Shown here piece after piece: positions 1 through 54,328 of a stretch of 64,000 nt of DNA. Origin of the DNA: Klebsiella oxytoca (GTDB lineage Bacteria > Pseudomonadota > Gammaproteobacteria > Enterobacterales > Enterobacteriaceae); assembly GCF_009707385.1 (NCBI RefSeq), contig NZ_CP046115.1, positions 3,286,001 through 3,350,000 on the forward strand. The letters run 5' to 3'. Each line of letters starts with the position of its first letter. Within the stretch, counting starts at the first letter, position 1. The notes beneath the pieces are model-generated. The model made no database searches and was not told the DNA's origin. It worked only from the letters and a program-made list of their open reading frames with translations. Both the position numbers and the translations under genes were made by a program.

Positions 1-645
1 CTGCTGACGCGCAGCCTGGATATTCCGGTGGCCACCCTGATAACCCAGGTGGAAGTGGACGCGAATGATGAAGCCTTCCTTAATCCGACCAAGCCCATCG
101 GCTCCTTCTTCAGCAAAGAAGAGGCAGAGAAGCTGACCCAAAACGGCTACACCATGAAAGAAGATGCCGGACGTGGCTACCGTCGCGTGGTCGCGTCGCC
201 TAAGCCAATAGACATTATCGAAAAACAAACGGTAAAAGCGCTGATGGATGACTGCCACGTGGTGATCACCGTCGGCGGCGGCGGAATTCCGGTGATTCGC
301 GAGGGTAACCATCTGCGCGGTGCCAGCGCGGTTATCGATAAGGATTGGGCCAGCGCCAAACTGGCGGAGATGATCGACGCCGACCTGCTGATCATTCTTA
401 CCGCCGTGGAAAAGGTGGCTATCAATTTCGGCAAACCTGATGAACAGTGGCTCGATGCCCTCTCGCTGCGCGACGCCGAACGCTTTATCGAAGAGGGACA
501 CTTTGCGAAGGGATCCATGCTGCCAAAAGTAGAAGCCGCCGCCTCCTTCGCCCGTTCTCGTCCGGGGCGCAAAGCGCTGATCACGATGTTGAGCAAAGCC
601 AAAGAAGGGATTGAAGGGAAAACGGGCACCATCATTAGCCAGTAG
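1..645 (+). CDS. yqeA: Carbamate kinase, YqeA/ArcC type (5' end outside window)
   Basis: The frame is open from base 1, so the gene starts upstream; 214 residues remain of a family of about 310. Carbamate kinase moves phosphate from carbamoyl phosphate to ADP, giving ATP, CO2 and ammonia. The fragment has the amino-acid-kinase features GGGGIP and, later, the AIIDADLLIILTAVEKV-like segment (AEMIDADLLIILTAV) followed by FAKGSMLPKVEAA, typical of the C-terminal half. Its place beside ygfK and ssnA matches E. coli, where yqeA ends the carbamoyl-forming branch of the anaerobic purine cluster and would provide its substrate-level ATP. YqeA is preferred over ArcC on context alone. Confidence 0.88.
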   Translation: MLTRSLDIPVATLITQVEVDANDEAFLNPTKPIGSFFSKEEAEKLTQNGYTMKEDAGRGYRRVVASPKPIDIIEKQTVKALMDDCHVVITVGGGGIPVIREGNHLRGASAVIDKDWASAKLAEMIDADLLIILTAVEKVAINFGKPDEQWLDALSLRDAERFIEEGHFAKGSMLPKVEAAASFARSRPGRKALITMLSKAKEGIEGKTGTIISQ

Positions 646-2248: not shown

Positions 2249-2264
2249 TGGTGTGATTGTTGCT
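2249..2264 (+). promoter_or_regulatory. Sigma-54 type -24/-12 promoter of ygfK
   Basis: TGGTGTGATTGTTGCT has the invariant GG and GC separated by exactly 10 bases, and the TTGCT of the -12 element; the CAC part of the -24 element is weak. Transcription would start near 2275, giving a leader of about 60 bases to the ATG at 2337. Confidence 0.6.
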
Positions 2265-2336
2265 CCTCTCCTGTTATCCGTCGGAATGATTACTACCGGC
2301 AATGTCGATCTTACAATGATATCTAAGGAGAGGGTT

Positions 2337-5300
2337 ATGGGAGATATAATGCGTCCCGTGCCGTTTGAAGAACTTTTGACGCGCATTTTTGATGAGTATC
2401 AGAGTCAACGGACGATTTTTGGCATTCCCGAACAACAGTTTTACTCGCCGCAGGCGCAGCGTTCCATCGGCGTGTTTGGCGAAAGCTGCGCAACGCCTCT
2501 CGGCCCGGCTGCCGGGCCGCACACCCAGCTGGCACAGAATATCATTACCGCCTGGCTCACCGGCGGACGGTTTATTGAGCTGAAAACCGTACAGATCCTT
2601 GACCGCCTGGAGCTGGAAAAACCCTGTATCGATGCCGAAGATGAGTGCTTCAACACCGAATGGTCTACCGAATTTACCCTGAAAAAAGCCTGGGATGAGT
2701 ATCTCAAAGCCTGGTTTGCGCTGCATCTGCTGGAGCAGGTGTTCCCGCTGGCGACAAATAAAGAGAGTAAGTCGTTTATTTTCAATATGAGCGTTGGTTA
2801 CAACCTGGACGGCATTAAGCAGCCGCCCATGCAGGAATTTATCGACAACATGATGAACGCCTCCGCCTATCCTAAATTCGCCCAGTACCGCGATACGCTG
2901 AACCGCTGGCTGCAAAATCCATCGTTTATCGACCGCCTGCCTGAAAGCGCGCGTAAAGCCGGGCTGGATAACCTCGCGCAGCGCGTGCCCGCCAGGCTGG
3001 TTGAGGGCGTGACCCTCTCGACGATGCACGGCTGCCCGCCGGATGAGATCGAAGCTATCTGCCGCTACATGCTGACTGAGAAAAACCTCAATACCTTTGT
3101 GAAGCTCAACCCTACCCTGCTCGGCTATCCGCGCGTTCGTGAAATCCTCGACACCTGCGGCTTCGGCTATATCGGCCTCAGCGAAGAGTCGTTTGACCAC
3201 GACCTGAAGATCGACCGGGCGCTGGAGATGTTAACGCGCCTGATGGCGCTGGCGAAAGAGCGCGGCCTCGGCTTTGGCGTCAAGCTGACCAACACCCTCG
3301 GCACCGTCAATAACAAAGGCGCGCTGCCGGGGGATGAAATGTATATGTCCGGCCGTGCGCTGTTTCCGCTATCGATCAACGTGGCCGCGCTGCTCTCGCG
3401 CGCGTTCGACGGCAAGCTGCCTATTTCCTACTCCGGCGGCGCCAGCCAGATTAACATCCGCGATATTTTCGAAACCGGCATTCGTCCCATCACCATGGCA
3501 ACCGATCTGCTGAAGCCGGGGGGATATTTACGTCTGAGCGAGTGCATGCGCGAACTGGAGAAAGCCGACGGCTGGAACATGACGCAAATCGACGTTGAAC
3601 GTCTCAACGCGCTGGCGGAAAAAGCGGTGAGCATGGATTACACCCAGAAGCAGTGGAAACCGGAAGATCGCATCGATACCGGTGAACCGCTGCCGCTGCT
3701 GGACTGCTACGTCGCCCCCTGCGTCACGGCCTGCGCCATCAAGCAGGATATTCCGGAATATATCCGTCTGCTGGGCGAGCATCGCTACGCCGACGCGCTG
3801 GAGCTTATCTATCAGCGTAACGCTTTACCGGCCATCACCGGCCATATATGCGATCACCAGTGCCAGTACAACTGTACGCGCCTGGATTACGACAGCGCGC
3901 TTAACATTCGCGACCTGAAGAAAGTGGCGCTGGAGAAAGGCTGGGATGAGTACCGAAGCCGCTGGCATAAGCCCGCAGGCTCTGGCTCCATGCACCCGGT
4001 AGCGGTGATAGGCGCAGGCCCTGCCGGTCTTGCCGCCGGCTACTTCCTCGCCCGCGCCGGACATCCGGTGACGGTTTTTGAACGCGAGGCCAATGCCGGA
4101 GGCGTGGTGCAGAATATCATTCCGCAGTTCCGCATTCCCGGCGAGCTTATCCAGCACGATATCGATTTTGTTGTCGCCCACGGCGTAAAAATTGAATACG
4201 GCTGCGATCCGCATCTGAGCGTAGACAAACTGCAGGCGGAAGGCTTCCGTTACGTATTGGTCGGTACCGGCACCGATAAAAACAGCGGCGTGAAGCTGCG
4301 CGGCGATAACCAGAACGTGCATAAGTCGCTGCAGTTTCTGCGCGAATTCAACCGCGACGTCCGTCTGAATATGGGCAAACGCGTGGCCGTCATCGGCGCC
4401 GGTAACACCGCTATGGACTGCGCTCGCGCGGCGCTGCGCGTACCTGGCGTGCAGAGCGTGACCATCGTCTATCGTCGTTCCCAGCAGGAGATGCCCGCCT
4501 GGCGTGAAGAGTACGATGAAGCCCTGCTCGACGGCGTAGACTTCGAATGGCTATGCAATCCTGAACAGTTTAATGCCGATGGCACTCTCACCGTGCGGGT
4601 CATGAAGCTGGGCGAGCCGGATGAGAAAGGCCGCCGCCGTCCGGTAGAAACCGATGAAATTCGCACGCTGAAAGTCGATTCTCTGATTACCGCCATCGGT
4701 GAGCAGCAGGACGGCGAGGCGCTGTCAGCCATGGGGATTCCGCTCGATCCGCAGGGCTGGCCGGTGGTTAACGCCGATGGCGAGACCAGCAGGCCGAACG
4801 TATTCCTGATTGGCGACGTGCAGCGCGGTCCCTCTTCTATTGTGTCGGCAATCGGCAACGCGCGACGGGCAACGGACGTGATTCTGACCAGGGAAAATAT
4901 CGCCAGCAGCCACGGAAATAAATTCTGGAACAACGTCGATCCGACCAAAGTTTATCAGCGTAAAGGCGCCATCGCCGTCACACTGGTGGATAAAGACCAG
5001 CGCGACGCCTTTGTTGAGCAGGAAGCCAGCCGCTGCCTCGAATGTAACTACATTTGCAGCAAGTGCGTCGACGTCTGTCCGAACCGCGCCAATATTTCCG
5101 TCGCCGTGCCGGGCTTCCAGAACCGTTTCCAGACGCTGCATCTGGATGCCTATTGCAACGAATGCGGCAACTGCGCCCAGTTCTGTCCATGGCAGGGAAA
5201 ACCGTACAAAGACAAAATCACCGTGTTCAGCCTTGAGCAGGATTTTGTCAACAGCACTAATCCAGGCTTCTTTGTCGAAGGTGCCAGCGTCAAGGTGCGT

Positions 5301-5441
5301 CAGGACGATAAAACATGGCAGCTGGAAATTAACGACCGCGGCCAGTTTAAAAACGTTCCAGCCGAGCTGGACGCCATGTGCCGCATCATAAGCCATATTC
5401 ATCAGCACCAGAGCTATCTATTGGGAGGCGTTGAAGTATGA
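2337..5441 (+). CDS. ygfK: YgfK, multidomain iron-sulfur flavoprotein of urate catabolism
   Basis: 1034 residues, starting at the ATG after AAGGAGAGGGTT; this start (MGDIMRP) matches E. coli YgfK. The N-terminal ~440 residues are a dihydroorotate-dehydrogenase-like barrel. Then comes a GltD-like region: cysteine clusters (LDCYVAPCVTACAIKQDIP near 455, HICDHQCQYNC near 505), an FAD fold (VIGAGPAGLAAGYFLARAG near 556) and an NAD(P) fold (VAVIGAGNTAMDCARAAL near 682). The C-terminus carries ferredoxin motifs (CLECNYICSKCVDVCP near 900, YCNECGNCAQFCP near 940). It is annotated as a putative selenate reductase subunit, but E. coli genetics ties it to anaerobic urate degradation, probably as a reductase. 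It overlaps ssnA by four bases (ATGA). Confidence 0.95.
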   Translation: MGDIMRPVPFEELLTRIFDEYQSQRTIFGIPEQQFYSPQAQRSIGVFGESCATPLGPAAGPHTQLAQNIITAWLTGGRFIELKTVQILDRLELEKPCIDAEDECFNTEWSTEFTLKKAWDEYLKAWFALHLLEQVFPLATNKESKSFIFNMSVGYNLDGIKQPPMQEFIDNMMNASAYPKFAQYRDTLNRWLQNPSFIDRLPESARKAGLDNLAQRVPARLVEGVTLSTMHGCPPDEIEAICRYMLTEKNLNTFVKLNPTLLGYPRVREILDTCGFGYIGLSEESFDHDLKIDRALEMLTRLMALAKERGLGFGVKLTNTLGTVNNKGALPGDEMYMSGRALFPLSINVAALLSRAFDGKLPISYSGGASQINIRDIFETGIRPITMATDLLKPGGYLRLSECMRELEKADGWNMTQIDVERLNALAEKAVSMDYTQKQWKPEDRIDTGEPLPLLDCYVAPCVTACAIKQDIPEYIRLLGEHRYADALELIYQRNALPAITGHICDHQCQYNCTRLDYDSALNIRDLKKVALEKGWDEYRSRWHKPAGSGSMHPVAVIGAGPAGLAAGYFLARAGHPVTVFEREANAGGVVQNIIPQFRIPGELIQHDIDFVVAHGVKIEYGCDPHLSVDKLQAEGFRYVLVGTGTDKNSGVKLRGDNQNVHKSLQFLREFNRDVRLNMGKRVAVIGAGNTAMDCARAALRVPGVQSVTIVYRRSQQEMPAWREEYDEALLDGVDFEWLCNPEQFNADGTLTVRVMKLGEPDEKGRRRPVETDEIRTLKVDSLITAIGEQQDGEALSAMGIPLDPQGWPVVNADGETSRPNVFLIGDVQRGPSSIVSAIGNARRATDVILTRENIASSHGNKFWNNVDPTKVYQRKGAIAVTLVDKDQRDAFVEQEASRCLECNYICSKCVDVCPNRANISVAVPGFQNRFQTLHLDAYCNECGNCAQFCPWQGKPYKDKITVFSLEQDFVNSTNPGFFVEGASVKVRQDDKTWQLEINDRGQFKNVPAELDAMCRIISHIHQHQSYLLGGVEV

Positions 5442-6775
5442 GTATCCTGATTCTGAAGAATGCCACCGCCGCGCAGATCTATCCGGCGAAAGTGTGGGAG
5501 AACGTCGATATTGCCATTGAGAACGATACTATTCTCGATGTTGGCCCCGGCCTGTGCCAGCGCTATCCGCAGGCGCAGGTAAAAGAGATGGGCGGACAGC
5601 TGGTGATGCCCGGTATGGTCTGCTCCCACAATCACTTTTATTCCGGCCTGTCCCGCGGTATTCAGGCCAATATCGCACCCAGCCCGGACTTTATCTCAAC
5701 GCTGAAAAACCTGTGGTGGCGTCTTGACCGGGCGCTGGACGAAGAGTCGCTCTACTACAGCGGGCTGATCTGCGCCATGGAAGCGGTGCGCAGCGGCTGC
5801 ACGGCGGTTATCGATCATCATGCCTCGCCGCACTATATCGCCGGCTCCCTGAGCCAGCTGCGCAACGCCTTTCTCAAAATAGGGCTGCGTGGGATGACCT
5901 GCTTTGAAACCACCGACCGCAACTTCGGCAGCCGCGAACTGCGCGACAGCGTGGAGGAGAATATTCGCTTTGCCAGAGAGATCGACGCCGCGCGCGAGAA
6001 GGGAGACCAGCCTTATCTGGTCGAAGCCCACATCGGCGCCCATGCGCCTTTCACCGTGCCGGATGAAGGCCTGACGATGCTAAGCGAGGCCCTGAAAGCA
6101 ACCGGACGCGGCCTGCATATTCACGCGGCGGAAGACCGCTACGATGTTTCACACAGCCATCACCTTTACGGCAAGGACCTGCTGGTGCGGCTGGCGGAGT
6201 TCGACCTTATCAACAGTAAGACGCTGATTGCTCACGGTCTGTATATCTCCGATGCCGACGTGGAGCTGCTCAATACGCAGGACGGTTTCCTGGTGCATAA
6301 CGCCCGCTCCAACATGAACAACCACGTCGGCTACAATCATCGTCTGCCGCAGTTGCGTAACCTGGCGCTGGGCACCGACGGCATTGGTTCCGACATGTTT
6401 GAGGAGATGAAGTTTGCCTTCTTTAAACACCGGGACGCCGGCGGTCCGCTGTGGCCGGACAGCTTTGCGAAGGCGCTGAGCAATGGTAATGAGCTGCTGA
6501 ACCGCAACTTCAACGCCCGCTTTGGTCGCCTTGAAGCGGGATATAAAGCGGATCTCACAATCTGCGATTATATGGCGCCAACCCCGCTTATCGCGGAAAA
6601 TATCGCCGGACATATCGCCTTTGGTCTGGGTGCCAATAGCGTGCGCAGCGTGATGGTAAACGGCGTGATGATTTATGAAGATCGCCAGTTCAGCTTCGAC
6701 TGCGAGCCGATATTCAAAGCGGCGCAGAAAGTGGCGCAAAAAATGTGGGCGCGAATGGATGCGCTCCCCGCATAA
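5438..6775 (+). CDS. ssnA: SsnA, putative aminohydrolase of purine catabolism
   Basis: 445 residues (E. coli about 442). It belongs to the metal-dependent amidohydrolase superfamily, close to the guanine-deaminase/TrzN branch. Metal-site motifs are visible: SHNHFY near residue 65, HIHAAED near 227, LIAHGLYIS near 262 and LGTDGIGSDM near 310. The start codon lies inside the stop of ygfK (ATGA, GGAGG 8 bases upstream), so the two are translationally coupled. The exact substrate is not settled; the family and context suggest hydrolysis of a reduced purine or its ring-opened product. Confidence 0.95.
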   Translation: MSILILKNATAAQIYPAKVWENVDIAIENDTILDVGPGLCQRYPQAQVKEMGGQLVMPGMVCSHNHFYSGLSRGIQANIAPSPDFISTLKNLWWRLDRALDEESLYYSGLICAMEAVRSGCTAVIDHHASPHYIAGSLSQLRNAFLKIGLRGMTCFETTDRNFGSRELRDSVEENIRFAREIDAAREKGDQPYLVEAHIGAHAPFTVPDEGLTMLSEALKATGRGLHIHAAEDRYDVSHSHHLYGKDLLVRLAEFDLINSKTLIAHGLYISDADVELLNTQDGFLVHNARSNMNNHVGYNHRLPQLRNLALGTDGIGSDMFEEMKFAFFKHRDAGGPLWPDSFAKALSNGNELLNRNFNARFGRLEAGYKADLTICDYMAPTPLIAENIAGHIAFGLGANSVRSVMVNGVMIYEDRQFSFDCEPIFKAAQKVAQKMWARMDALPA

Positions 6776-6888: not shown

Positions 6889-7365
6889 TTATAGCGACAG
6901 CAGCGCGGCGGTAGCGATATTGCGCTGTTTTTGCAGTTCTTTTAGCTGCTCTTCGGTCATTTTACTCAACGCCGCCGTCGGGCAGACGTCAACGCAGGCG
7001 GGCCCGCGCTCCCTGCTGCTGCAGAGGTCGCATATGACAATAACCGGCGTCAGACCGGCCTTCACCTCAATAGTTACCGCCCCAAACGGACAGGCGATGA
7101 CGCAGCTCTGGCAACCAATGCAGCGCCCGCCGTCGGCCTCCACCCTCTCCGCCCCCATACTGAGCGCTCCGGTCGGGCAGGCGCTCACGCAGGGCGCATT
7201 CTCGCACTGATGGCACATCACCGGCACGCTAAGGTCGTCGAGGCGCATCACCTTCAGGCGGGGATTAAACTCCGCGCCCGGCGTCACATGCTCCAGCGCA
7301 CAGGCCACCTCACAGGTCCGGCAGCCGAAGCAGGACTGCGGACTGGCAACGATAAAACTGGTCAT
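6889..7365 (-). CDS. ygfS: YgfS, four-cluster ferredoxin-like electron carrier
   Basis: 158 residues (E. coli 162). It is a HydN/DmsB-like polyferredoxin. Cysteine groups are visible at C12-C15-C18-C22 and then MCHQCENAPCVSACPTGAL, CIGCQSCVIACPFGA and CDLCSSRERGPACVDVCPTAAL. It should pass electrons between formate dehydrogenase and the urate-reducing enzymes in the cytoplasm. Its start overlaps the stop of ygfT by four bases, so it is the second gene of a ygfT-ygfS operon. Confidence 0.93.
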   Translation of the reverse strand: MTSFIVASPQSCFGCRTCEVACALEHVTPGAEFNPRLKVMRLDDLSVPVMCHQCENAPCVSACPTGALSMGAERVEADGGRCIGCQSCVIACPFGAVTIEVKAGLTPVIVICDLCSSRERGPACVDVCPTAALSKMTEEQLKELQKQRNIATAALLSL

Positions 7366-9302
7366 ATCTCCTCCCTGGCCCGGAATTGAGCCAACATCTC
7401 GCTGGCCGCCTGCCGCCCGGCTACCATGGCGGTAACCACCAGGTCCGCTCCGGTAACGGCATCGCCGCCGGCATAGACTTTGTCGTGAGTGGTCTGGGTC
7501 GTTCCGCGCCCTTTGCCGCCGGTGATAATCTGCCCCCAGCGATCCAGCTTAATGCCGTGGCCCCGCAGCCAGGGCATGTCGTGAGCCTGAAAGCCGAACG
7601 CCATAATGAGGATGTCGGCCTTCAGTTCAAACCCGGAGTCCGGGATCGGCTGCGGCCGACGGCGGCCATCCGGGCCCGGTTCGCCCATTTTCGTGCGGAT
7701 CATCTCCACCGCGCTGACCTGCCCCTTGCGGTTGAGCTGAATGCGCTGCGGCTGAACGTTAAACTCAAATTTCACCCCCTCTTCCCGCGCATTGACCACC
7801 TCTTTTTTCGAGCCGGGCATACTCAGCTCATCGCGACGATAGGCACAGGTCACGCTCTGCGCTCCGCGACGAACGGCGGTGCGCAGGCAGTCCATCGCCG
7901 TATCTCCCCCGCCAAGCACCACAACGTGTGTGCCCTTAATGTCGATTAAGGGATATTCGGCGCTCTCTTCCAGCCCCATCACCTCCCGGGTGCTGGCAAT
8001 CAGGAACGGCAGAGCCTGAACCACTCCGGGCGCCGTCTCCCCCTCCAGACCGGCGGCCATCAGACCATAGGTACCCACGCCGAGGAAGACGGCGTCGTAG
8101 TTTGTCAGCAGCTCATCAAACGCCACATCGCGCCCCACCTCCTGGTTGAGATGAAAGTTGACGCCCATGGCGCTGAAAATATCGCGCCGCCGTTCAAGCA
8201 CGTTTTTATCCAGCTTGAACGGTGGAATACCAAAGGTCAGCAGGCCGCCGATCTCCGGGTGGCGATCGAAGACGTCCACGTGTACGCCCGCGCGAACGAG
8301 AATATCGGCGCAGCCCAGACCGGCTGGCCCGGCGCCAATTATCGCCACCCGCTCCCGGCGCGGCGGGACTTCAACGATCGTCGGCCGCCAGCCCATCGCC
8401 AGCGCGGTATCGGTGATGTAGCGTTCAAGGTTGCCAATAGCGACCGATCCGCCCTCGTTCTTAAGAGTGCAGGCTCCCTCGCACAGCCGATCCTGCGGGC
8501 AAACCCGACCGCAAATCTCGGGCAGGGAGCTGCTCTGATGGCACAATTCAGCCGCCTCGATAATCTTGCCTTCATTCACCAGGCGGATGAAATCGGGAAT
8601 ATGGTTATGCAGCGGGCACGTCCAGTTGCACCACGCTTTCTGCGCGCAATAGAGACAGCGCTGGCTCTCATACTCCGCATCACGCTCGCTCAGCGGCTGA
8701 TAGATTTCAGCGAAATGCTGCAAACGAGCATCGGCGGCAGCCTTTTTCGCCCCAACTCGCGGTGGTTTATCGAGAATTGCATTGCGCCTTGCGCCGCGGA
8801 CGCCGTCTAGCGGCTTTTCCAGCGCGGAGCGAATCTGTCGCTCCGCGCGCAGCTGGTTAATACTCGCCTCATCCATCAGGCGCAGAGCCTGGGTTGGACA
8901 GCTGGCTACGCATGCCTGCTGACCGGAAGGGTGCTGGCTGCAAAGATCGCATTTCTGCGCCAGCTGCGGCATGCCGTCATCGTTCGCCACCATCTCAATC
9001 GCGCCAAACGGACAGGCGATAATGCAATTTTTACAGCCGATACACAGAGCCTCTTTAAACTGAACGCTGTCATTCGCAAAACTCAGCGCCTGAGTCGGGC
9101 ACGATCCGACGCAGGGAGCGTCATTGCAGTGGCGGCAGGTTGTCGCGCTGCTGGCCTTGCGGTTGAAGAATACGCGAATGCGTGGAAGAAAGTCGCTGCG
9201 CTGCTGGGGCCAGCTGTCCTGGCGATGAGAGGTGACGCAGGCCACTTCACAGGCGTGGCAGCCAATACAGTTCGCAGAATCGGCAACAATAAATTTATTC
9301 AT
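7362..9302 (-). CDS. ygfT: YgfT, ferredoxin/NADPH oxidoreductase needed for urate catabolism
   Basis: 646 residues from the ATG at 9302 (MNKFIVADSANC). The longer open frame adds 13 residues not shared with the family. The N-terminal ~180 residues are HydN-like with four cysteine groups (first C12, C15, C18, C22). The rest is GltD-like: CLYCAQKAWCNWTCP, an FAD fold (AIIGAGPAGLGCADIL near 320) and an NADP fold (VVLGGGDTAMDCLRTAVRRG near 460). This is the AegA/YgfT family; in E. coli both members are reported as required for formate-dependent urate breakdown. It lies divergent to ygfU, from which it is separated by 576 bases holding several regulatory signals. Confidence 0.95.
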   Translation of the reverse strand: MNKFIVADSANCIGCHACEVACVTSHRQDSWPQQRSDFLPRIRVFFNRKASSATTCRHCNDAPCVGSCPTQALSFANDSVQFKEALCIGCKNCIIACPFGAIEMVANDDGMPQLAQKCDLCSQHPSGQQACVASCPTQALRLMDEASINQLRAERQIRSALEKPLDGVRGARRNAILDKPPRVGAKKAAADARLQHFAEIYQPLSERDAEYESQRCLYCAQKAWCNWTCPLHNHIPDFIRLVNEGKIIEAAELCHQSSSLPEICGRVCPQDRLCEGACTLKNEGGSVAIGNLERYITDTALAMGWRPTIVEVPPRRERVAIIGAGPAGLGCADILVRAGVHVDVFDRHPEIGGLLTFGIPPFKLDKNVLERRRDIFSAMGVNFHLNQEVGRDVAFDELLTNYDAVFLGVGTYGLMAAGLEGETAPGVVQALPFLIASTREVMGLEESAEYPLIDIKGTHVVVLGGGDTAMDCLRTAVRRGAQSVTCAYRRDELSMPGSKKEVVNAREEGVKFEFNVQPQRIQLNRKGQVSAVEMIRTKMGEPGPDGRRRPQPIPDSGFELKADILIMAFGFQAHDMPWLRGHGIKLDRWGQIITGGKGRGTTQTTHDKVYAGGDAVTGADLVVTAMVAGRQAASEMLAQFRAREEI

Positions 9303-9442
9303 TTGCTTCCCTTTATTATTCCAGGACTCACCGGGTAGCAATGCAATAATCAGGCGCTTTTTTTAAAGGCATTAATATGGCGGTCATTTTTGCGAGCCGC
9401 CTCAAAAAAACAGAGCCACTTCGGCTTAATTGCGCAATAAAT

Positions 9443-9672: not shown

Positions 9673-9688
9673 TGGCACATCTTACGCA
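9673..9688 (+). promoter_or_regulatory. Sigma-54 type -24/-12 promoter of ygfU-fdhF
   Basis: TGGCACATCTTACGCA: a consensus TGGCAC, then GC at the required 10-base spacing from GG. A start near 9700 would give a leader of about 180 bases that includes a shortened ERIC element. In E. coli fdhF is also sigma-54 dependent, which fits an operon with ygfU here. Confidence 0.7.
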
Positions 9689-9878: not shown

Positions 9879-11354
9879 ATGAAAGATATCGCCAATTCCG
9901 CCTCAAAAAATGGGAACTCGACCGCACCGGTTGATGAGATTTTACCCATTACGCAAATGATTCTTTATGGCCTGCAGCACGTGCTGGTGATGTACGCGGG
10001 CGCCGTCGCGGTTCCGCTGGTGGTGGGCAATGCGGTAGGGCTACCGCCGGAACACATTATTTTACTGATTAGCGCCGACCTGTTTATCTGCGGCGCGGCC
10101 ACCATCGTGCAGTCGCTGGGGGTCGGTAAATGGCTCGGCTGCCGGTTGCCGCTTATCCAGGGCTGTACCTTTGCGGCGCTGATTCCGATGGTTCTGATCG
10201 GTAAGGAGTACGGAATCGGCGGCATTTCCGGGGCGGTGATCGTTTCCGGTATTTTCATACTCTGCTGCGCCCCGTGGATTAGTAAACTCATTCGATTCTT
10301 TCCCAAAGTCGTCATGGGCAGCATCGTCACCCTTATCGGTATGTCGATTATGCCGGTGGCCGGGGGATGGATTGGCGGCGGCAGCAGCGAAATGAACGGC
10401 TTTGGCGCTCCCTTTTCGCTGCTGATGGCGGCAATTACGCTGGTGATTATTCTCAATATTTACACCTTTGCCTCCGGCGTGGTGAAAAACACCTCGGTGC
10501 TAATTGGTCTTATCGTCGGGACGGTTCTCTGGGGTTGCTTTAAGCCTCTCGACTTTAGTCTGGTCCACGCCACCCCCTGGCTCCATCTACCGACCCTGAT
10601 GCCCTTTGCCAAACCTGAATTTCATATTATCCCCGTCGCCCTGCTGTCGATGGTTATGGTGGTGGTGATGGTGGAAACCATGTCCTCGATGATGGCAACC
10701 GGGGATATCGTCGGAAAGAAAGTTGACGCGAAGATGCTGCGCAACGGCCTCAACACCTGCGGGATCGCGACGACTATCTGCGGCTTCTTCAATCTCTTTC
10801 CCTACGCCGCGTTCGCGCAGAACGTCGGCCTGATCGGTTTGACCGGGGTACGCAGCCGCTTTGTCGTCTCGGTCTCCGGTATCATTCTCATTCTGATGGG
10901 CGTGTTCTCAAGAATGGCGGCGCTGGTGGTTCTGATCCCTAAACCGATCCTCGGCGGCGCGGGCATTGTCATGTTCGGTATGGTGGCGGTATCCGGTATA
11001 CGTACGCTGGGGCAGGTCAACTACCGCAACAATAATAACGGTATGGTGGTGGCGTTGACCCTCAGTCTCGGCATGATGCCGGTGCTGGTACCCAACCTGT
11101 TCACCCAGTTTCCGCCGATGGTTCAGCTCTTCCTGCACAGCGGGATCACCATTGGAACCCTGACGGCTATCGTCGCCAACCTCACCCTCAACGGCAGCGT
11201 GCCTTTCCGCGTTAACCACGAAACCCCGGTTCCCGATCCGGCACCGCCCAGCTCGGCGGCGCGCAATATGGCCGTCAGAACCGTCAGAATGTGGCTACTG
11301 CTGCGCAAAGTTCAGAAAGAGAGAGGGCCTGAAGAAGCCCGGGAGGGACAGTAA
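9879..11354 (+). CDS. ygfU: YgfU-type urate:proton symporter (NCS2/NAT family)
   Basis: 491 residues (E. coli 482) with about 12-14 hydrophobic segments. The nucleobase-ascorbate transporter signature is present as QNVGLIGLTGV, and the first-helix motif as QHVLVMYAGAVAVPLVVG. YgfU of E. coli imports urate. An AGGAG ribosome site lies before the ATG. Its stop overlaps the start of a 38-codon reading frame (TAATG), after which fdhF follows, so transporter and formate dehydrogenase appear co-transcribed. Confidence 0.93.
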   Translation: MKDIANSASKNGNSTAPVDEILPITQMILYGLQHVLVMYAGAVAVPLVVGNAVGLPPEHIILLISADLFICGAATIVQSLGVGKWLGCRLPLIQGCTFAALIPMVLIGKEYGIGGISGAVIVSGIFILCCAPWISKLIRFFPKVVMGSIVTLIGMSIMPVAGGWIGGGSSEMNGFGAPFSLLMAAITLVIILNIYTFASGVVKNTSVLIGLIVGTVLWGCFKPLDFSLVHATPWLHLPTLMPFAKPEFHIIPVALLSMVMVVVMVETMSSMMATGDIVGKKVDAKMLRNGLNTCGIATTICGFFNLFPYAAFAQNVGLIGLTGVRSRFVVSVSGIILILMGVFSRMAALVVLIPKPILGGAGIVMFGMVAVSGIRTLGQVNYRNNNNGMVVALTLSLGMMPVLVPNLFTQFPPMVQLFLHSGITIGTLTAIVANLTLNGSVPFRVNHETPVPDPAPPSSAARNMAVRTVRMWLLLRKVQKERGPEEAREGQ

Positions 11355-11470
11355 TGCTCAGCAGATTCCTGTTTGCTTTGATAACCCTGCTGCTGCTGGC
11401 GGTACCCGTCGTGCAGCAAGGGATAGCGCAGGGCCTGAACGGCCGCTTTGGTTTTGCCCTGCTGTTTTAA
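11354..11470 (+). CDS. Candidate 38-residue membrane protein coupled to ygfU
   Basis: The ATG overlaps the ygfU stop (TAATG) and has GGGAGGG nearby upstream. The peptide begins MLSRFLFALITLLLLAVPVV, one hydrophobic segment with a basic N-terminal end, and stops 25 bases before fdhF. No family recognised. The tight coupling suggests either a small partner of the urate permease or a translational bridge to fdhF. It is too short for composition alone to prove coding. Confidence 0.5.
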   Translation: MLSRFLFALITLLLLAVPVVQQGIAQGLNGRFGFALLF

Positions 11471-11495: not shown

Positions 11496-13643
11496 ATGAA
11501 GAGAGTCACGACCGTCTGCCCCTACTGCGCTTCCGGCTGCAAGATGCAGCTCACGGTAGAGGAAGGCAAAATTACCCGCGCCGATGCCGCGATGGGTAAA
11601 AACAATCAGGGCACGCTGTGCCTGAAAGGCTACTACGGCTGGGACTTTATTAATGATACCCAGATCCTTACGCCGCGCCTGAAAACGCCGATGATCCGCC
11701 GCCAGCGCGGCGGCAAGCTCGAGTCGGTTTCCTGGGAGGAAGCGCTCGATTATGTCGCCGCCCGCCTCAGCGAGATAAAAGCCCAGTACGGGCCAGACGC
11801 TATCCAGACCACCGGGTCTTCGCGCGCCACCGGCAACGAAACAAACTACATCATGCAGAAATTTGCGCGCGCGGTTATTGGTACCAATAACGTCGACTGC
11901 TGCGCTCGCGTCTGACACGGCCCTTCGGTTGCAGGTCTGCACCAGTCGGTCGGCAACGGCGCGATGAGTAATGCTATCACCGAGATCGATAATACCGATC
12001 TGGTGTTTATTTTTGGCTATAACCCGGCGGATTCGCACCCCATCGTGGCGAATCATATTCTCAATGCCAAACGCAACGGCGCAAAAATTATCGTCTGCGA
12101 TCCGCGCAAAATCGAAACTGCGCGTATAGCCGATATGCATCTTGCCCTTAAAAACGGTTCCAATATTGCGCTGCTGAACGCCATCGGACACGTGATTATC
12201 GCGGAGGATCTCTACGATAAATCCTTCGTTGCCGGTCGTTCGGAGGGCTTCGACACCTACCGGGGTATTGTCGAGCGCTATACACCGGAGTCGGTAGAAG
12301 CGATAACCGGTATCAGCGCCAGGCAGATTCGCGAGTGCGCGCGGATGTACGCGACCGCCGGCAACGCCACTATTCTCTGGGGGATGGGAGTGACCCAGTT
12401 CTGGCAGGGGGTGGAAACGGTGCGCTCGCTCACCAGCCTGGCGATCCTGACCGGCAACCTGGGCAAACCGCACGTCGGCGTCAATCCGGTACGCGGCCAG
12501 AACAACGTTCAGGGCGCCTGCGATATGGGAGCATTACCGGACACCTATCCGGGCTATCAGTATGTGAAATTCCCGGAAAACCGGGAAAAGTTCGCCAAAG
12601 CCTGGGGCGTAGAGAGCCTGCCGGAGAATCCCGGCTACCGTATCAGCGAGCTGCCGCACCGCGTGGCGCATGGCGAAGTACGGGCGGCGTACATCATGGG
12701 GGAAGATCCGCTCCAGACCGATGCCGAGCTTTCTGCCGTACGTAAGGCGTTCGAAGAGATGGAGCTGGTTATCGTCCAGGATATCTTTATGACCAAAACC
12801 GCAGCAGCGGCCGACGTCATTTTGCCGTCCACCTCGTGGGGCGAGCACGAAGGCGTTTATACCGCCGCAGACCGCGGGTTCCAGCGCTTTTTCAAAGCGG
12901 TAGAGCCGAAGTGGGATCTGAAGACCGACTGGCAGATAATCTGCGAGATCGCCACCCGCATGGGTTATCCGATGAAGTACGACAATACGCAGCAAATCTG
13001 GGATGAACTACGCCATCTGTGCCCCAACTTTTTCGGCGCCACCTACGGGAAAATGGGTGAGCTTGGCTACGTGCAGTGGCCGTGCCGCGACGAATCAGAG
13101 GCAGATCGGGGCACCTCGTATCTGTTTGCCGAGCGTTTTTCCACCCCCAACGGGCTGGCGCAGTTCTTCACCTGCGAATGGCAGGAGCCTGTCGACAAAC
13201 TCAGCGATGAGTATCCGCTGGTGCTCTCCACCGTGCGCGAAGTGGGCCACTACTCCTGCCGCTCGATGACCGGCAACTGCGCGGCGTTGGCCAGGCTGGC
13301 GGATGAACCGGGCTATATCCAAATCAATACCGCCGATGCAAAACGTCTCGGCATTGGCGATGAGGAGCTGGTCTGGGTCAACTCGCGCAAAGGCAAGGTG
13401 ATTACCCGGGCGAAGGTCAGCGATCGACCGAATCGCGGCGCGGTCTATATGACCTATCAGTGGTGGATCGGCGCCTGCAATGAGCTGGTCACTGAGAACC
13501 TGAGCCCGATAACCAAGACGCCTGAGTATAAATACTGCGCGGTTAACGTTGAGCGCATTACCGATCAGCGCGCCGCTGAGCAGTACGTCCTTGATGAATA
13601 CAACCAGTTAAAAACCCGCCTGCGCGAAAGCGCCGCAGGATAA
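11496..13643 (+). CDS. fdhF: Formate dehydrogenase H, selenocysteine enzyme
   Basis: 715 residues counting selenocysteine, exactly the E. coli length. It oxidises formate to CO2 with bis-molybdopterin guanine dinucleotide and one [4Fe-4S] cluster. Cluster ligands C8, C11, C15 and C42 and the electron-relay K44 are present. The in-frame UGA at 11913-11915 is codon 140, followed by His141 (UHGPS), as in E. coli. The 40 bases after the UGA (GGTTGCAGGTCTGCACC loop region) match the bacterial SECIS. The start ATG at 11496 has AGGA 8 bases upstream. It sits in the ygfU transcription unit, ready to supply reductant through YgfS/YgfT, instead of at its own locus. Confidence 0.97.
11913..11955 (+). 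promoter_or_regulatory. SECIS element and UGA selenocysteine codon of fdhF
   Basis: The TGA is followed by CACGGCCCTTCGGTTGCAGG and then TCTGCACCAGTCGG, which closes the bacterial SECIS hairpin with its GGTCTGC apical loop for SelB. It differs from the E. coli element at very few bases. Confidence 0.9.
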
Positions 13644-13710: not shown

Positions 13711-14316
13711 TTATCCGACAGCCGCCAGATCCTTATGGCAGCGGCGTGCCACCTCAAGATACTGCTGCGGAGTATCAACGTCCCAGTGAATTCCCTGATT
13801 CGCCACCGGGATAACGCGCACCGTCATCTGACCGATGACGTCGCGCAGCGTTGCCCCTTCCGGCGCGTGACGAATAAGAGACGCCGCGCGCTGGGGCAGA
13901 AGAACCGGATGGCCTTTACCGCGCTCGTAGGCCGGAATAATACAGCTCTCCGTGTCGGCGCTGGCCCACAGCTTTCGGTACACGCCCGGCGTGACTTCCG
14001 GCATATCGCCCAGCGCCAGAAAAAAGCGCGAGGCGCGGAGGTGATTTACCCCGCACTGAATAGAAGAGAACATACCATCGTGATATTGCGGGTTAAAGAC
14101 GACCTCAACGCCCGGATGATCCCGATAGCAGGCGGCCAGTTCATCGCCGCGAAATCCGGTCACCAGCACCACCCGATCGCAGAACGCCAGAGCGCTGGCG
14201 AGGGCGCTATCCAGAATAGTGCCCTCGCCCCACGGCATCATCATTTTCCATTTTCCCATGCGGCTGGAGAGTCCGGCCGCCAGCATAATGCACTCTTTAG
14301 CCATTTTTTTGCTCAT
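13711..14316 (-). CDS. mocA: MocA, molybdenum cofactor cytidylyltransferase
   Basis: 201 residues (E. coli MocA, formerly YgfJ, 192). It transfers CMP from CTP to molybdopterin, making the cytosine dinucleotide cofactor of xanthine-dehydrogenase-type enzymes. The nucleotidyltransferase motif is at 12-21 (LAAGLSSRMG), with LALGDMPEVTP near 100. Two ATGs compete; the inner one (14316) is six bases from GGAGG, while the outer directly abuts it. It is last in the xdh operon and would supply cofactor to the hydroxylase encoded just upstream of it. FdhF uses a guanine dinucleotide cofactor instead. Confidence 0.93.
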   Translation of the reverse strand: MSKKMAKECIMLAAGLSSRMGKWKMMMPWGEGTILDSALASALAFCDRVVLVTGFRGDELAACYRDHPGVEVVFNPQYHDGMFSSIQCGVNHLRASRFFLALGDMPEVTPGVYRKLWASADTESCIIPAYERGKGHPVLLPQRAASLIRHAPEGATLRDVIGQMTVRVIPVANQGIHWDVDTPQQYLEVARRCHKDLAAVG

Positions 14317-14381
14317 CGTCATCCTCCCTCCCGGCCCGATAAAGCGCCACCGCCGGTAGCCGACGGCGGCGCTTACGGCAC

Positions 14382-14840
14382 TCAGGATTTCAGCACTGCT
14401 TTTATCGAGGTAATAATCGGCTGATATCCCGTACAGCGGCAGATATTGCCTTCCAGCGCCTCTTTCAGCTCATCATCGCTGGGGGACGGGTTGGCATCCA
14501 GCAGCGCCTTCGCGCTCATCAGGACCCCGGGAGTACAGAAGCCGCACTGAACGCCGCCGTGACGAATAAAGGCGTTCTGCAATTTTTTGCCGACCGGATC
14601 GTGATGCAGCGCTTCGACGGTGGTGACCTCGGCCCCGTTGCACTGAGCCGCCAGCAGCAGACAGGAGCAGACGGACTTTCCGTCCATGATAACGGTACAG
14701 GCGCCGCACTCGCCTACTGAACAGCCCTCTTTGGTTCCCGTAAGCTTCAGCTCCTCACGCAGAAAATCGATCAGGCGTACATTATCTTTCACATCGCGGG
14801 CAATGCGGATGCCATTCACTTTTAGCTCAATATGGTTCAT
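14382..14840 (-). CDS. Xanthine-dehydrogenase-type 2Fe-2S subunit
   Basis: 152 residues from the second ATG, which lies 8 bases after AGGAG; the first ATG (14846) is only two bases from it. Two [2Fe-2S] motifs are complete: a plant-type ferredoxin set C40, C45, C48, C60 and a four-helix set C99, C102, C134, C136 (QCGFCTPG and NICRCTGYQP). It moves electrons from the molybdenum centre to FAD in the partner encoded just upstream (14853). In the E. coli XdhD/YgfM system the organisation differs, so I leave the symbol blank. Confidence 0.93.
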   Translation of the reverse strand: MNHIELKVNGIRIARDVKDNVRLIDFLREELKLTGTKEGCSVGECGACTVIMDGKSVCSCLLLAAQCNGAEVTTVEALHHDPVGKKLQNAFIRHGGVQCGFCTPGVLMSAKALLDANPSPSDDELKEALEGNICRCTGYQPIITSIKAVLKS

Positions 14841-14852
14841 GTTCATGGCTCC

Positions 14853-17800
14853 TTATTTCTTCTGCTCTGTCATGACTTCCTGCAGCATCTGCCGGAACAT
14901 ATCGATAAATACCGGGACCTTATAAGGCGCTGACCAGCGTCCTCCGATGGCTTTCTCCACCTTGTCGTGAAGCCCCCCGGCGGCCTGTTCAATGGTAGCG
15001 GCGTCTAATGTCTTACCGATGAGCGCCTGTTCAACCTCATGCAGCCGCTGCGGTTTGGCCATCAGCGCGCCATCCACCAGCCGACACAGGCGAATCACGC
15101 CCTTATCGACCATGAACTGGCCGGTCAGACTTTGACGGGTGATATTCAACGCATTGCGACGGCCAAGCTGCAGATAGCGATTAATCAGCGGCTGCTGGGT
15201 CGGCGGCGGCAGGATAAAGCGAATAACCAGCTCATCAGGCTCAAGAACCGTACGATAGCCGCCAACGACAAATTCGCTGACCGGCATCCGCCGCGTCCCG
15301 CGCGCGCTGCGCAGCTCCACTTCCGCATCGTAGATAATCAGCGGCGGCATGGAGTCCGCGCACGGGGCGGCGTTAACGATGTTGCCGCCGATTGTTGCCC
15401 GGTTACGCAGCTGCAGCGAGCCGACGGTTTTACAGGCGGTAACCAGTAGCGGGTAGCGCTGCTGAATTAACGGATGCCTGACCAGGTCGGTAAAGCAGAC
15501 GCCGGAGCCGATAGAAATTCCGCCCTCGACGTCAAAGATCTCTTTCAGCTCTGACAGTCCGGCGATGTTAACAAGCGGCACCTCTCCGGACAGCATCCGC
15601 GCCTGCACCAGCACATCGGTGCCGCCGGCAATGGGCATCGCGCCTTTCTCAGCCATCAGCGTTAAGGCCTGTTTCAGGGTTTGCGGGACGCTGAGCGACA
15701 GGGTATTGAGACGATGAACCTGTTTCTTATCGCCCGACTCCAGCATCTGCTCGCTCTGGCGCTCCGGCTTCTTGAGGTTATAACCCAGACGAACCTGTTC
15801 CAGCGTCAGTGGCAGAGTGCGGTTTGGCCGTCCAATGGCGAAACTCACCGCATTGTTGAGGGCCGCAGCGCCCAGCTCCAGCACCGGTTCACCGATGACT
15901 TTCGCCCCCATCGGCCCTGCTTTGTCGTAGTTTTCGACCGCGATAATATCGATGTTCGGCATATCTTTGATGGTCGGCAGCAGGTAGGTATCAAAGTTTT
16001 CCGATTTCACTACGCCGTGCTCGGTGTTGAAATCCTCCAGCATGCCGTAGCCGATCATTCCCTGCAGCACGCCGCCGTAGACCTGGCCGTTAAAACCGAC
16101 CGGGTTGATGACTTTACCCACATCGTGGGTGGCGACGACATTATTAACGGTGATTTTGCCGGTGCGCATATCCACCGCGACGTCGGCCAGCTGGCAGCCG
16201 TATACCCAGGTGAAATAGGGGCTACCGCAGCCCTTCTCCTCATCCCAGTGAATATTCGGCGCGACGTGCCAGCCGTAGGCGGAGAGATTGGCCCCGGTGG
16301 CCCGGGTCATATCGCACACCTGCTGGAAACTGAGGCTCAGCGCCGGATCGTCGCGGTTGAATACCTTGCCATTCTGCCAGGCTATATCGTCGATGCTCTG
16401 CGCTTTTAAGGTTTCCTTAATGGCGTCCGCCATGCGTTGCTTAATTTTATTCGCCGCGCTAAGAATCGCCTGTCCGCCCATCAACGTCCCGCGAGAAGCG
16501 ACCGTTGAGCCGCCGTCAGCGATCATGGCGGTGGCTGGTTCGCTGAACATCACCCGATCGAGCCCGATACCAAAGGCTTCCGCAGCCAGCAGCGACATAG
16601 TTGTCTGCAGCCCCTGCCCGTTCTCGGAAACCGAGGTGGAGATGTTGACGCTGGCGTCGGCATTCACCTGAATAAGCGCGGAGGAAGCATCCAGCCCCTC
16701 GGCGCCCAGAGAGCAGCCGCGGTGGCTCAGCGCGAAGCCAATACCGTAGCGGATCGGCCCGCCCTCAGCGTTAAGCTGCTGATAGTGCTGCCGTTTGGCC
16801 TCGTATTCGGCCTTGAGCAGCGTCTTCTCCAGCACTTCCTGCGCGGAGACGGTATGCTCGCTAAATACCTGACCGGCCATGCTGGTGTCACCCTGCTTAA
16901 GAATATTGCGCAGGCGGAATTCGACGGGCGAGAGACCCAGCTCGCCCGCCACGTCATCCATCAGCGATTCGTTGGCGAAAATGACCTGCGGCGCCCCGTA
17001 GCCGCGATAGGCCGAGGTGTAGTTATTGTTGGTATAAACGCCTACCAGATCGACGCGCACGTTAGGAATGTTGTAGGGACCGGCCGCCTGTACGGAACTA
17101 CGCCAGGTGACAAATACCGTCTGGCCGCAGTAGCTACCGCCATCGGCGATGATATCGATTTTAATCGCCTGAATACGCGCGTCATCGTCCACGCCAATGC
17201 GATATTTCATCTTATAGGGGTGGCGCTTGTAGCTCTCGCGCATGGACTGTTCGCGGTTATAGGAGATCTTAACCGGCCGCCCGGTAAGGTGTACCAGCAG
17301 CGCCGCGCGGCAGGAGACGTTGTCGATAATATCATCTTTACCGCCGAAGGAGCCGCCGAGGACGGAACGCTTAATGTTGACCTTCGCCTGGGGCAGATCA
17401 AGGTATTTGGCAATTACCGCCCGGGTGCGGTGAGCGTTCTGGATCGACCCTTCGATGGTCATAATCTGCTCATTATTATCCAGGTAGGCGGTAATGGATT
17501 CCGGCTCAATATAGCCGTGCTCCTGGAATCCCACCTCGTACTCACGTTCGAAAATACGCGTGGACGCGGCAAAACCGGCGTCGATATCGCCCTTCGCCGT
17601 GTGGTGGCGGTTAATAATGTTGCTGTCGAGTTCGCTGTGGATCAGGCGCGCCCCCGGCTTCATCGCCTCTTCCGGAGAGGTAATCGGCTCCCATGGGGTG
17701 TAGGTTATTTTAATTTTATCGACCGCAATACAGGCAGCCTCATAGGTTTCCGCCGCCACAACGGCAACCACGTCGCCGCGGTAGGCTATTTCATTGTCAA

Positions 17801-18065
17801 TAATGGGGGGATGATCGGGAACAATCGCTCCCAGTTTACGTTGACCGGGTATATCGTTCCAGGTAGCGATGCGCACAACCCCAGGAACCTTTTCCGCCTC
17901 GGAAAGATCGAGCGAATCGATTCGCCCGGCAGGAATATCCACGTAGCGGCATACGCCATACAGCATATCATTCATGACAATGTCATCGCCGTAGACCGCT
18001 TTACCCGTCACCTTGGCGAGCCCATCGACGCGGGGCACTTCACTGCCAACCAGCAATGTATCCAT
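14853..18065 (-). CDS. Molybdenum hydroxylase: molybdopterin subunit fused to FAD subunit
   Basis: 1070 residues from the ATG at 18065 (GGAGG nine bases upstream). Residues 1 to about 755 are the molybdopterin-binding part of a xanthine dehydrogenase: GGSFGGKDD near 237, a WR-SSVQAAGPYNIP segment near 320 whose Arg aligns with the substrate-binding Arg880 of bovine enzyme, AYRGYGAPQ near 351, and the catalytic-Glu motif GEPVLELG near 723. The residue corresponding to bovine Glu802 is Asp. A charged linker (about 760-780) leads to an FAD domain of the CoxM/XdhB/YgfM type (PIAGGTDVLVQARM near 805, TIGGNIVNAAPCADSMPPL near 890). Substrate is probably a purine such as urate, xanthine or hypoxanthine. 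Confidence 0.93.
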   Translation of the reverse strand: MDTLLVGSEVPRVDGLAKVTGKAVYGDDIVMNDMLYGVCRYVDIPAGRIDSLDLSEAEKVPGVVRIATWNDIPGQRKLGAIVPDHPPIIDNEIAYRGDVVAVVAAETYEAACIAVDKIKITYTPWEPITSPEEAMKPGARLIHSELDSNIINRHHTAKGDIDAGFAASTRIFEREYEVGFQEHGYIEPESITAYLDNNEQIMTIEGSIQNAHRTRAVIAKYLDLPQAKVNIKRSVLGGSFGGKDDIIDNVSCRAALLVHLTGRPVKISYNREQSMRESYKRHPYKMKYRIGVDDDARIQAIKIDIIADGGSYCGQTVFVTWRSSVQAAGPYNIPNVRVDLVGVYTNNNYTSAYRGYGAPQVIFANESLMDDVAGELGLSPVEFRLRNILKQGDTSMAGQVFSEHTVSAQEVLEKTLLKAEYEAKRQHYQQLNAEGGPIRYGIGFALSHRGCSLGAEGLDASSALIQVNADASVNISTSVSENGQGLQTTMSLLAAEAFGIGLDRVMFSEPATAMIADGGSTVASRGTLMGGQAILSAANKIKQRMADAIKETLKAQSIDDIAWQNGKVFNRDDPALSLSFQQVCDMTRATGANLSAYGWHVAPNIHWDEEKGCGSPYFTWVYGCQLADVAVDMRTGKITVNNVVATHDVGKVINPVGFNGQVYGGVLQGMIGYGMLEDFNTEHGVVKSENFDTYLLPTIKDMPNIDIIAVENYDKAGPMGAKVIGEPVLELGAAALNNAVSFAIGRPNRTLPLTLEQVRLGYNLKKPERQSEQMLESGDKKQVHRLNTLSLSVPQTLKQALTLMAEKGAMPIAGGTDVLVQARMLSGEVPLVNIAGLSELKEIFDVEGGISIGSGVCFTDLVRHPLIQQRYPLLVTACKTVGSLQLRNRATIGGNIVNAAPCADSMPPLIIYDAEVELRSARGTRRMPVSEFVVGGYRTVLEPDELVIRFILPPPTQQPLINRYLQLGRRNALNITRQSLTGQFMVDKGVIRLCRLVDGALMAKPQRLHEVEQALIGKTLDAATIEQAAGGLHDKVEKAIGGRWSAPYKVPVFIDMFRQMLQEVMTEQKK

Positions 18066-18105
18066 ATTATTCAGCCTCCACTCACAAAGAAAGATAACTG
18101 AATAA

Positions 18106-18121
18106 AGCAATGGCTATGCCA
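18106..18121 (-). promoter_or_regulatory. Sigma-54 type -24/-12 promoter of the xdh-mocA operon
   Basis: Read on the minus strand, TGGCATAGCCATTGCT fits the consensus TGGCAY-N5-TTGCW at every fixed position. Transcription would start near 18096, about 30 bases before the ATG at 18065. Confidence 0.8.
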
Positions 18122-54259: not shown

Positions 54260-54285
54260 ATCATACTCTCTTAACTTGCGCCCAT

Positions 54286-54309
54286 AAAAAACGCCGGCTT
54301 AACCGGCGT
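54286..54309 (-). terminator. fadD terminator
   Basis: On the minus strand ACGCCGG/CCGGCGT with a 5-base loop, then TTTTTTAT. Confidence 0.85.
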
Positions 54310-54328
54310 CTGGCGATTAACTCTTAAC

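Follow-up and report, generated by a model that had tools for sequence, protein, structure and literature searches.

The window analysed here is the whole 64,000-nt stretch of the Klebsiella oxytoca chromosome (5.39 Mb, assembled as one contig). Around the formate dehydrogenase gene it carries the following features, given in window coordinates.

1..645, plus strand: 3′ portion of yqeA (carbamate kinase), whose start lies 5′ of the window; 96% identical to a Salmonella plasmid gene
703..1620, minus strand: XdhC-family maturation factor (PF13478, PF02625)
2253..5441, plus strand: ygfK, reductive dearomatising flavoprotein (TIGR03315, 1667.9 bits, above the cut-off)
5438..6775, plus strand: ssnA, amidohydrolase (TIGR03314, 681 bits, above the cut-off)
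6889..7365, minus strand: ygfS-like 4Fe-4S dicluster ferredoxin (profile matches)
7362..9341, minus strand: ygfT, a HydN-like 4Fe-4S ferredoxin domain joined to a GltD-like FAD/NAD(P) domain (NF009451, 1183.6 bits, cut-off 1154)
9673..9688, plus strand: candidate sigma54 site TGGCACATCTTACGCA, 5′ of the permease (score at least 12.5)
9879..11354, plus strand: NCS2 permease, UacT-like (42.5% identity to E. coli UacT and 26% to XanQ)
11354..11470, plus strand: hydrophobic small ORF of 38 aa, YqfG-like, overlapping the permease stop and ending 25 nt before fdhF
11496..13643, plus strand: fdhF, formate dehydrogenase H selenoprotein, putatively urate-linked (715 aa, Sec140, Asn36)
11908..11962, plus strand: SECIS element (Rfam RF01988, SECIS_2, 77.7 bits, gathering score 70)
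13711..14322, minus strand: mocA-like molybdenum cofactor cytidylyltransferase (TIGR03310, 157.5 bits, below the cut-off of 186)
14382..14846, minus strand: 2Fe-2S subunit of a molybdenum hydroxylase (PF01799, PF00111)
14853..18110, minus strand: large subunit of the molybdenum hydroxylase with a C-terminal FAD domain, an XdhA/XdhB-like fusion (PF02738, PF20256, PF00941)

The fdhF gene was intact. Its ORF translation contained a single in-frame TGA, at codon 140, and the protein matched TIGR01591 with 1032.4 bits (cut-off 666.25). The SECIS element was the sole SECIS match in the whole window in an Rfam search, and its 55 nt were 98% identical to those of the canonical copy of the same genome and 91% identical to those of E. 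coli. The Sec140 codon and the near-identical SECIS described in the initial annotation were thus borne out. In the alignment the protein kept Cys8, Cys11, Cys15 and Cys42 of the [4Fe-4S] cluster as well as Lys44, His141 and Arg333, which we take to be the key positions of FdhF, and it is predicted to catalyse formate oxidation. The Rfam search of the window also returned the small RNA sroD (54285-54370, minus strand, 93.7 bits).

YgfK and SsnA, both scoring above their family cut-offs, identify the surrounding genes as a reductive urate cluster. Immediately upstream, and spanning the left edge of the window, are a sigma54 regulator, ygeW, ygeX, ygeY, hyuA and yqeA; HyuA, YgeW, YgeX, YgeY and YqeA were 95.5-98.8% identical to annotated Salmonella plasmid genes. 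The real start of ygfK may sit about 25 codons further 3′. The gene order was ygfK, ssnA, ygfS, ygfT, permease, fdhF, mocA and hydroxylase, which agrees with the earlier placement of fdhF between the ygf genes and mocA with its hydroxylase. The locus had been called a urate operon. Gene directions alternate, however, and it is therefore better described as a cluster of several transcription units running in both directions. The statement that fdhF directly follows ygfU was correct in that fdhF lies 3′ of a permease gene, but the small ORF intervenes and the permease is 42.5% identical to UacT. This ORF resembled E. coli YqfG (41 aa) in sequence and position, yqfG being comparably placed directly after uacT, and recognisable YqfG-like ORFs were found downstream of the permease in several other loci too.

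The window gene is the second Sec-fdhF copy of the chromosome. A search for another fdhF, which the initial annotation had suggested, recovered a canonical Sec-fdhF, 88% identical to the window copy, at 393227-395371, next to yjcO and gltP, where it also lies in E. coli. The hyc genes were located at about 4204700, with HycE present, and the genome also held a third, Cys-type FdhF relative (63% identity) and an AegA homologue 57% identical to YgfT. The locus had been described as self-contained. This holds for the gene set, but the genome has the canonical fdhF and the AegA homologue as well. In E. coli K-12 uacT lies at 3,031,367 and fdhF at 4,297,219, consistent with the earlier remark that fdhF is far from the urate genes in that species.

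We surveyed 295 genomes of the family, 46 of which carried YgfK, and all counts given here refer to this sample. The check for other genomes with fdhF in the urate cluster gave 15 of the 46 YgfK-bearing genomes, in 12 of 31 genera. The linkage lay on one contig in 13 (G000, G001, G242, G074, G078, G034, G267, G249, G027, G050, G230, G148 and G016) and was read across contig ends in the remaining two (G195 and G042). By a rough estimate, which assumes two FdhF copies per genome and independent genomes although the genomes are related, a fraction of 0.017 would have FdhF within 20 kb of ygfK by chance. YgfT, or AegA in G148 and G016, was on the same contig as the cluster in 13 of the 15 genomes; in G050 YgfT was on a separate contig, and a search for YgfT in G195 did not find it. 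The cluster fdhF of G267 was frameshifted in its assembly. Three genomes (G177, G043 and G193) had the same type of cluster with no fdhF between the permease and mocA, and the copy is therefore dispensable somewhere.

Among the best 80 of 571 relatives, fdhF was found within the retrieved flanks of three loci, from K. michiganensis, Enterobacter sp. JUb54 and Mixta tenebrionis. The K. michiganensis cluster was 95% identical over YgfK. The permease is too diverged for megablast, and a search of an E. coli collection with that program was accordingly a poor guide to linkage. Two Salmonella enterica plasmids (CP054717.1 and CP053580.1) carried the ygfK-mocA region at 88.2% DNA identity, and CP054717.1, an IncF plasmid typed as conjugative, held the entire urate cluster with fdhF. 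Since the whole cluster occurs on plasmids, the trait can probably move between hosts.

Hydrogenases were screened with PF00346, which detects HycE/HyfG and NuoD. No HycE/HyfG was found with this profile in eight of the 46 YgfK-bearing genomes (G016, G034, G078, G087, G145, G148, G230 and G273). In five of them (G016, G034, G078, G148 and G230) the cluster copy was the sole FdhF (E<=1e-200). Among the others, G273 had a separate module, G145 an unlinked Cys-type FdhF and G087 no FdhF. The possibility raised in the initial annotation, that the gene serves formate hydrogenlyase (FHL) only, does not fit these five genomes. Across the 46 genomes, linkage was seen in 5/8 of those without HycE and in 10/38 of those with it, a difference that was not significant (Fisher p 0.09).

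A related alternative is that the window gene is a redundant second FdhF that works mainly in FHL and was placed here by an accident of duplication. The 88% identity of the protein body to the canonical copy, the retention of all tested catalytic residues and the presence of HycE in this genome are compatible with it, as are the cluster copies of G001 and G242, which past about 120 nt match their own canonical copies at 96-100% in most windows. We nevertheless consider it very improbable. Besides the five genomes in which the cluster copy is alone and HycE/HyfG is missing, the linkage was seen again in 12 genera, the canonical sigma54 site is absent, and the [4Fe-4S] domain has diverged, with an Asn36 that was absent from 57 FdhFs of HycE-bearing genomes.

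The phylogeny places the window FdhF in a clade made up of cluster copies only, with support of 100/100 in two trees. Its other members were the Salmonella plasmid copy, K. michiganensis (in the second tree only), G078, G074, G195 and G034. The canonical copy of this genome grouped with K. pneumoniae. Six comparisons inside the window clade gave dN/dS values of 0.041-0.057, and on these codon-level estimates the clade is under purifying selection. The cluster FdhFs of G034 and G230 had Cys140 in place of Sec. SelB above the cut-off was missing in G230 alone among the 15 genomes, G034 having SelB; with Cys140 and no SelB in G230, the enzyme appears to have been retained when Sec decoding was apparently lost.

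The promoter data set most cluster copies apart from the canonical ones. A simple consensus was used to score sigma54 sites. The threshold was set at 12.5, the value obtained for the site of E. coli fdhF, and random 150-nt windows reached it in 1.6% of cases. Of the non-cluster fdhF rows, 27 of 29 had an upstream site within 150 nt, whereas among the cluster rows 3 of 17 did; two further cluster rows had none (0/2), and over the cluster copies as a whole the site was absent in 17/20. The window fdhF lacked an E. coli-type site just 5′ of the gene, such as is expected of an FHL subunit, its best score in 150 nt being 11.5 against 12.5 for both E. coli and its own canonical copy. In a later set the site was present for 57/57 FdhFs of HycE-bearing genomes and 0/3 of HycE-less ones, one of the three being the module copy of G273. 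The cluster copies that had a site were those of G249, G027 and G050; they lie beside gltP, with a reverse-strand ORF separating permease and fdhF, and in these genomes a second fdhF lies near hycE.

All 16 permease loci scanned had an upstream sigma54 site scoring at least 12.5, against a chance expectation of 4.9% per 400 nt. The simplest interpretation has fdhF exchanging a formate-responsive promoter of its own for the permease's sigma54 promoter, on which the sigma54 regulator of the cluster would act.

The protein differences were concentrated at the N-terminus. The first 55-residue window, which holds all four cluster cysteines, was among the most conserved windows between canonical copies (mean distance 0.038), and it was the most different one between cluster and canonical copies, at 0.235 for the clade of the window copy (U1) and 0.185 for G001, G242 and JUb54. 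Beyond the N-terminus, the distance of the latter three to the canonical copies was about that among canonical copies. The window FdhF had Asn36 where FHL subunits have Thr36, a signature derived here rather than an established criterion. Asn36 was present in 18 of 20 cluster copies (15/17 in the window-distance comparison, plus G267, G042 and G273) and in 2/29 non-cluster rows of that comparison, G096 and G043. G096 has no HycE. G043 is an exception, combining Asn36 with HycE, and has a Cys-type FdhF about 3.4 kb from its HycE. Further exceptions were G002, with Thr36 and no HycE, and G148 and G016, whose cluster copies are of another (Cys-type) FdhF kind and have Thr36. FdhFs with Asn36 and no sigma54 site also occurred in G017 and G163, genomes with no YgfK match or HycE.

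The residue-36 rule was set beforehand and then applied to 60 FdhFs, with Thr in 57/57 from HycE-bearing genomes and Asn in 3/3 from HycE-less genomes; 56 of the 60 were new (G009, G144, G067 and G281 had already been used), and just three of these 56 were non-FHL. In a phylogeny built from residues 59-715, Asn36 required at least six changes, three of them forced by well-supported branches. In independent-pair tests of residue 36 against FHL all informative pairs were concordant, the three to four supported pairs being too few for significance. The Fisher table of residue 36 against HycE (74 and 1 versus 1 and 17) takes rows as independent and is descriptive. It omits K. pneumoniae, the Salmonella plasmid, K. 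michiganensis, JUb54 and Mixta, whose HycE status was untested, as well as E. coli, and also the rows that are Cys-type or fall in another clade (G148, G016, the third copy of this genome, G070 and G126), among which G148 and G016 would contradict the rule.

Independent recruitment of fdhF in G001 and G242 was considered, as their cluster copies grouped with their own canonical copies in the first tree, and was dropped on the evidence of a mosaic in sliding identity. Their first ~120 nt were 63-87% identical to their own canonical copy in 30-nt windows, with most of the remainder near 100%, a pattern therefore read as gene conversion and not as recent duplication. The mosaic identity of the two fdhF copies in G001, G242 and G042 suggests repeated conversion of the body with the 5′ end spared; in G042 contigs break within fdhF. 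A tentative model, to which we give somewhat less than even odds, is that FdhF comes in two partner types told apart by the N-terminal domain and chiefly by residue 36, Thr going with HycB and Asn with YgfT/YgfS, and that conversion overwrites the body while selection keeps the exit domain and the promoter separate. If so, one FdhF catalytic body would be kept in two electron circuits.

The hydroxylase is not orthologous to XdhD, nor probably the permease to UacT, and the assignment of urate as the probable substrate of the module therefore rests on YgfK, SsnA, YgeW/X/Y, HyuA and YqeA. The permease, although distant from E. coli UacT, was closer to it than to XanQ, and in G001 an E. coli-type UacT (81.5%) adjoins fdhF. 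The Mo-FAD hydroxylase resembled XdhA more than XdhD and was 26% identical to E. coli XdhD, with its 2Fe-2S subunit separate. In such clusters a fused Mo-FAD hydroxylase and a separate 2Fe-2S subunit take the place of XdhD and YgfM; co-occurrence of the hydroxylase with fdhF was judged from the retrieved stretches of clusters.

The module might instead reduce or oxidise a different purine such as xanthine, the fdhF copy supporting that reaction. The modest identity of the permease to UacT would allow this, and the models that best matched the hydroxylase were those of xanthine dehydrogenase, none exceeding its cut-off. In the alignment the hydroxylase also lacked the loop holding XdhD Glu606, the residue named as a candidate for urate orientation in the portion of PMC12507026 consulted. 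Even so, we think another purine unlikely. The genes for the E. coli steps from yanthine to pyruvate (ygfK, ssnA, ygeW, ygeX, ygeY, hyuA and yqeA) are all present, and no match to the XdhD family (TIGR03313) above the cut-off was found anywhere in this genome. Moreover, the XdhD used by C. difficile is itself just 25.6% identical to that of E. coli (PMC12507026).

We conclude that this is a real, recurrent and dedicated FdhF of the urate module. Sequence comparison with related genomes suggests that the gene no longer belongs to the hydrogen-making machinery and that its product now channels electrons from formate into urate breakdown. Our main reading, which we put at a probability of about 0.72, is that it is a dedicated paralogue serving the anaerobic urate reduction module instead of FHL, with formate electrons passing via YgfT/YgfS, probably to NAD(P)H. 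The role in the urate module assigned by the initial annotation is well supported by the linkage in 15/46 genomes, the five genomes without HycE/HyfG, the promoter and the [4Fe-4S] domain. The route given there, from FdhF to YgfS/YgfT and on to YgfK or the hydroxylase, is inferred, and its last step more likely runs through NAD(P)H.

On this reading, fdhF would probably be transcribed with the permease and the YqfG-like ORF from the sigma54 promoter, controlled by the sigma54 activator that the cluster itself encodes, and would be expressed when urate is present rather than on high formate alone. FdhF would oxidise formate to CO2 at Mo and Sec140 and pass two electrons to its single [4Fe-4S] cluster. 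From there the HydN/HycB-like ferredoxin domain of YgfT would receive them, together with YgfS, a free ferredoxin related to that domain. The GltD-like domain of YgfT, which bears the motif GGGDTAMDC, would then reduce NAD(P)+, and NAD(P)H would power both reductive steps, at the hydroxylase and at YgfK.

Published work on the homologous proteins bears on several of these steps. AegA, YgfS, YgfT, HydN, HycB and HyfA form one paralogous group (PMC6004506, in the sections used here), and FdhF docks on HycB in the FHL structure (PMC9474812, likewise in part). Given this paralogy and this docking, a path from FdhF to YgfT/YgfS, NAD(P)H and then the hydroxylase and YgfK is likely. Counting against the proposed contact of FdhF with YgfT/YgfS, the same sections of PMC6004506 report that AegA, a YgfT paralogue, gave no clear interaction with FdhF in two-hybrid and deletion experiments and that dye-linked FdhF activity was unaffected. 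For the last step, NADH drives E. coli XdhD and NAD(P)H drives YgfK in vitro (PMC12507026, in the portion consulted), which makes passage through NAD(P)H the more likely course.

Electrons might alternatively pass from FdhF directly via YgfS to the fused hydroxylase within a complex, without NAD(P)H. YgfS as a free ferredoxin would suit such a transfer. In G273 the permease, fdhF, ygfT, ygfS and fused hydroxylase are grouped on a different contig from the ygfK cluster, an arrangement which implies that the module travels without ygfK. The ygfK cluster of G273 carries its own XdhD and YgfM. We give direct transfer little credence, however, as YgfT has the GltD-like NAD(P) domain and the hydroxylase carries an FAD domain of its own; the corresponding FAD domain of E. 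coli XdhD-YgfM is thought to be fed by NAD(P)H, with NADH driving the enzyme in vitro, according to the portion of PMC12507026 consulted.

Our literature search, in which subscription papers were outside reach, found no description of fdhF within a urate cluster. Urate-degrading gut bacteria are relevant to gout, and a need for formate in urate breakdown has been recognised for a long time in E. coli and in termite gut bacteria. To our knowledge, the point at which formate enters urate breakdown lacked clear identification. A cluster fdhF that is kept where the hydrogenase is gone points to FdhF together with YgfT/YgfS as this entry point. A pair of paralogues that are 88% identical, with their differences concentrated in the electron-exit domain, would also make partner choice in molybdenum enzymes testable.

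Formate-dependent urate degradation in E. coli reportedly involves AegA, YgfT/UacF, YgfS and FdhF (Iwadate and Kato 2019). The present locus is like that system in its Sec-FdhF, YgfT, YgfS, UacT-type permease and YgfK cluster. Whereas E. coli K-12 has a single, distant FdhF shared with FHL, here a second, diverged fdhF lies within the cluster. Compared with the canonical FdhF of FHL-1, the window copy is alike in its cofactor residues, Sec and SECIS, but differs in its missing sigma54 site, its N-terminal [4Fe-4S] domain and its Asn36 in place of Thr36. A Se-containing formate dehydrogenase has also been linked to uric acid fermentation, in a bifurcating complex of the HydABC/Bfu type (PMC9304861). 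As far as the consulted part of that source describes it, the two systems have the Se formate dehydrogenase and uric acid in common, and no HydABC/Bfu-type genes were recognised adjoining the window fdhF. With the reductive urate pathway of E. coli (XdhD, YgfK, SsnA, HyuA, YgeW, YgeY and YgeX), as set out in the consulted portion of PMC12507026, the cluster shares all of the steps after yanthine, and where that pathway has XdhD/YgfM it encodes the fused Mo-FAD hydroxylase and the separate 2Fe-2S subunit.
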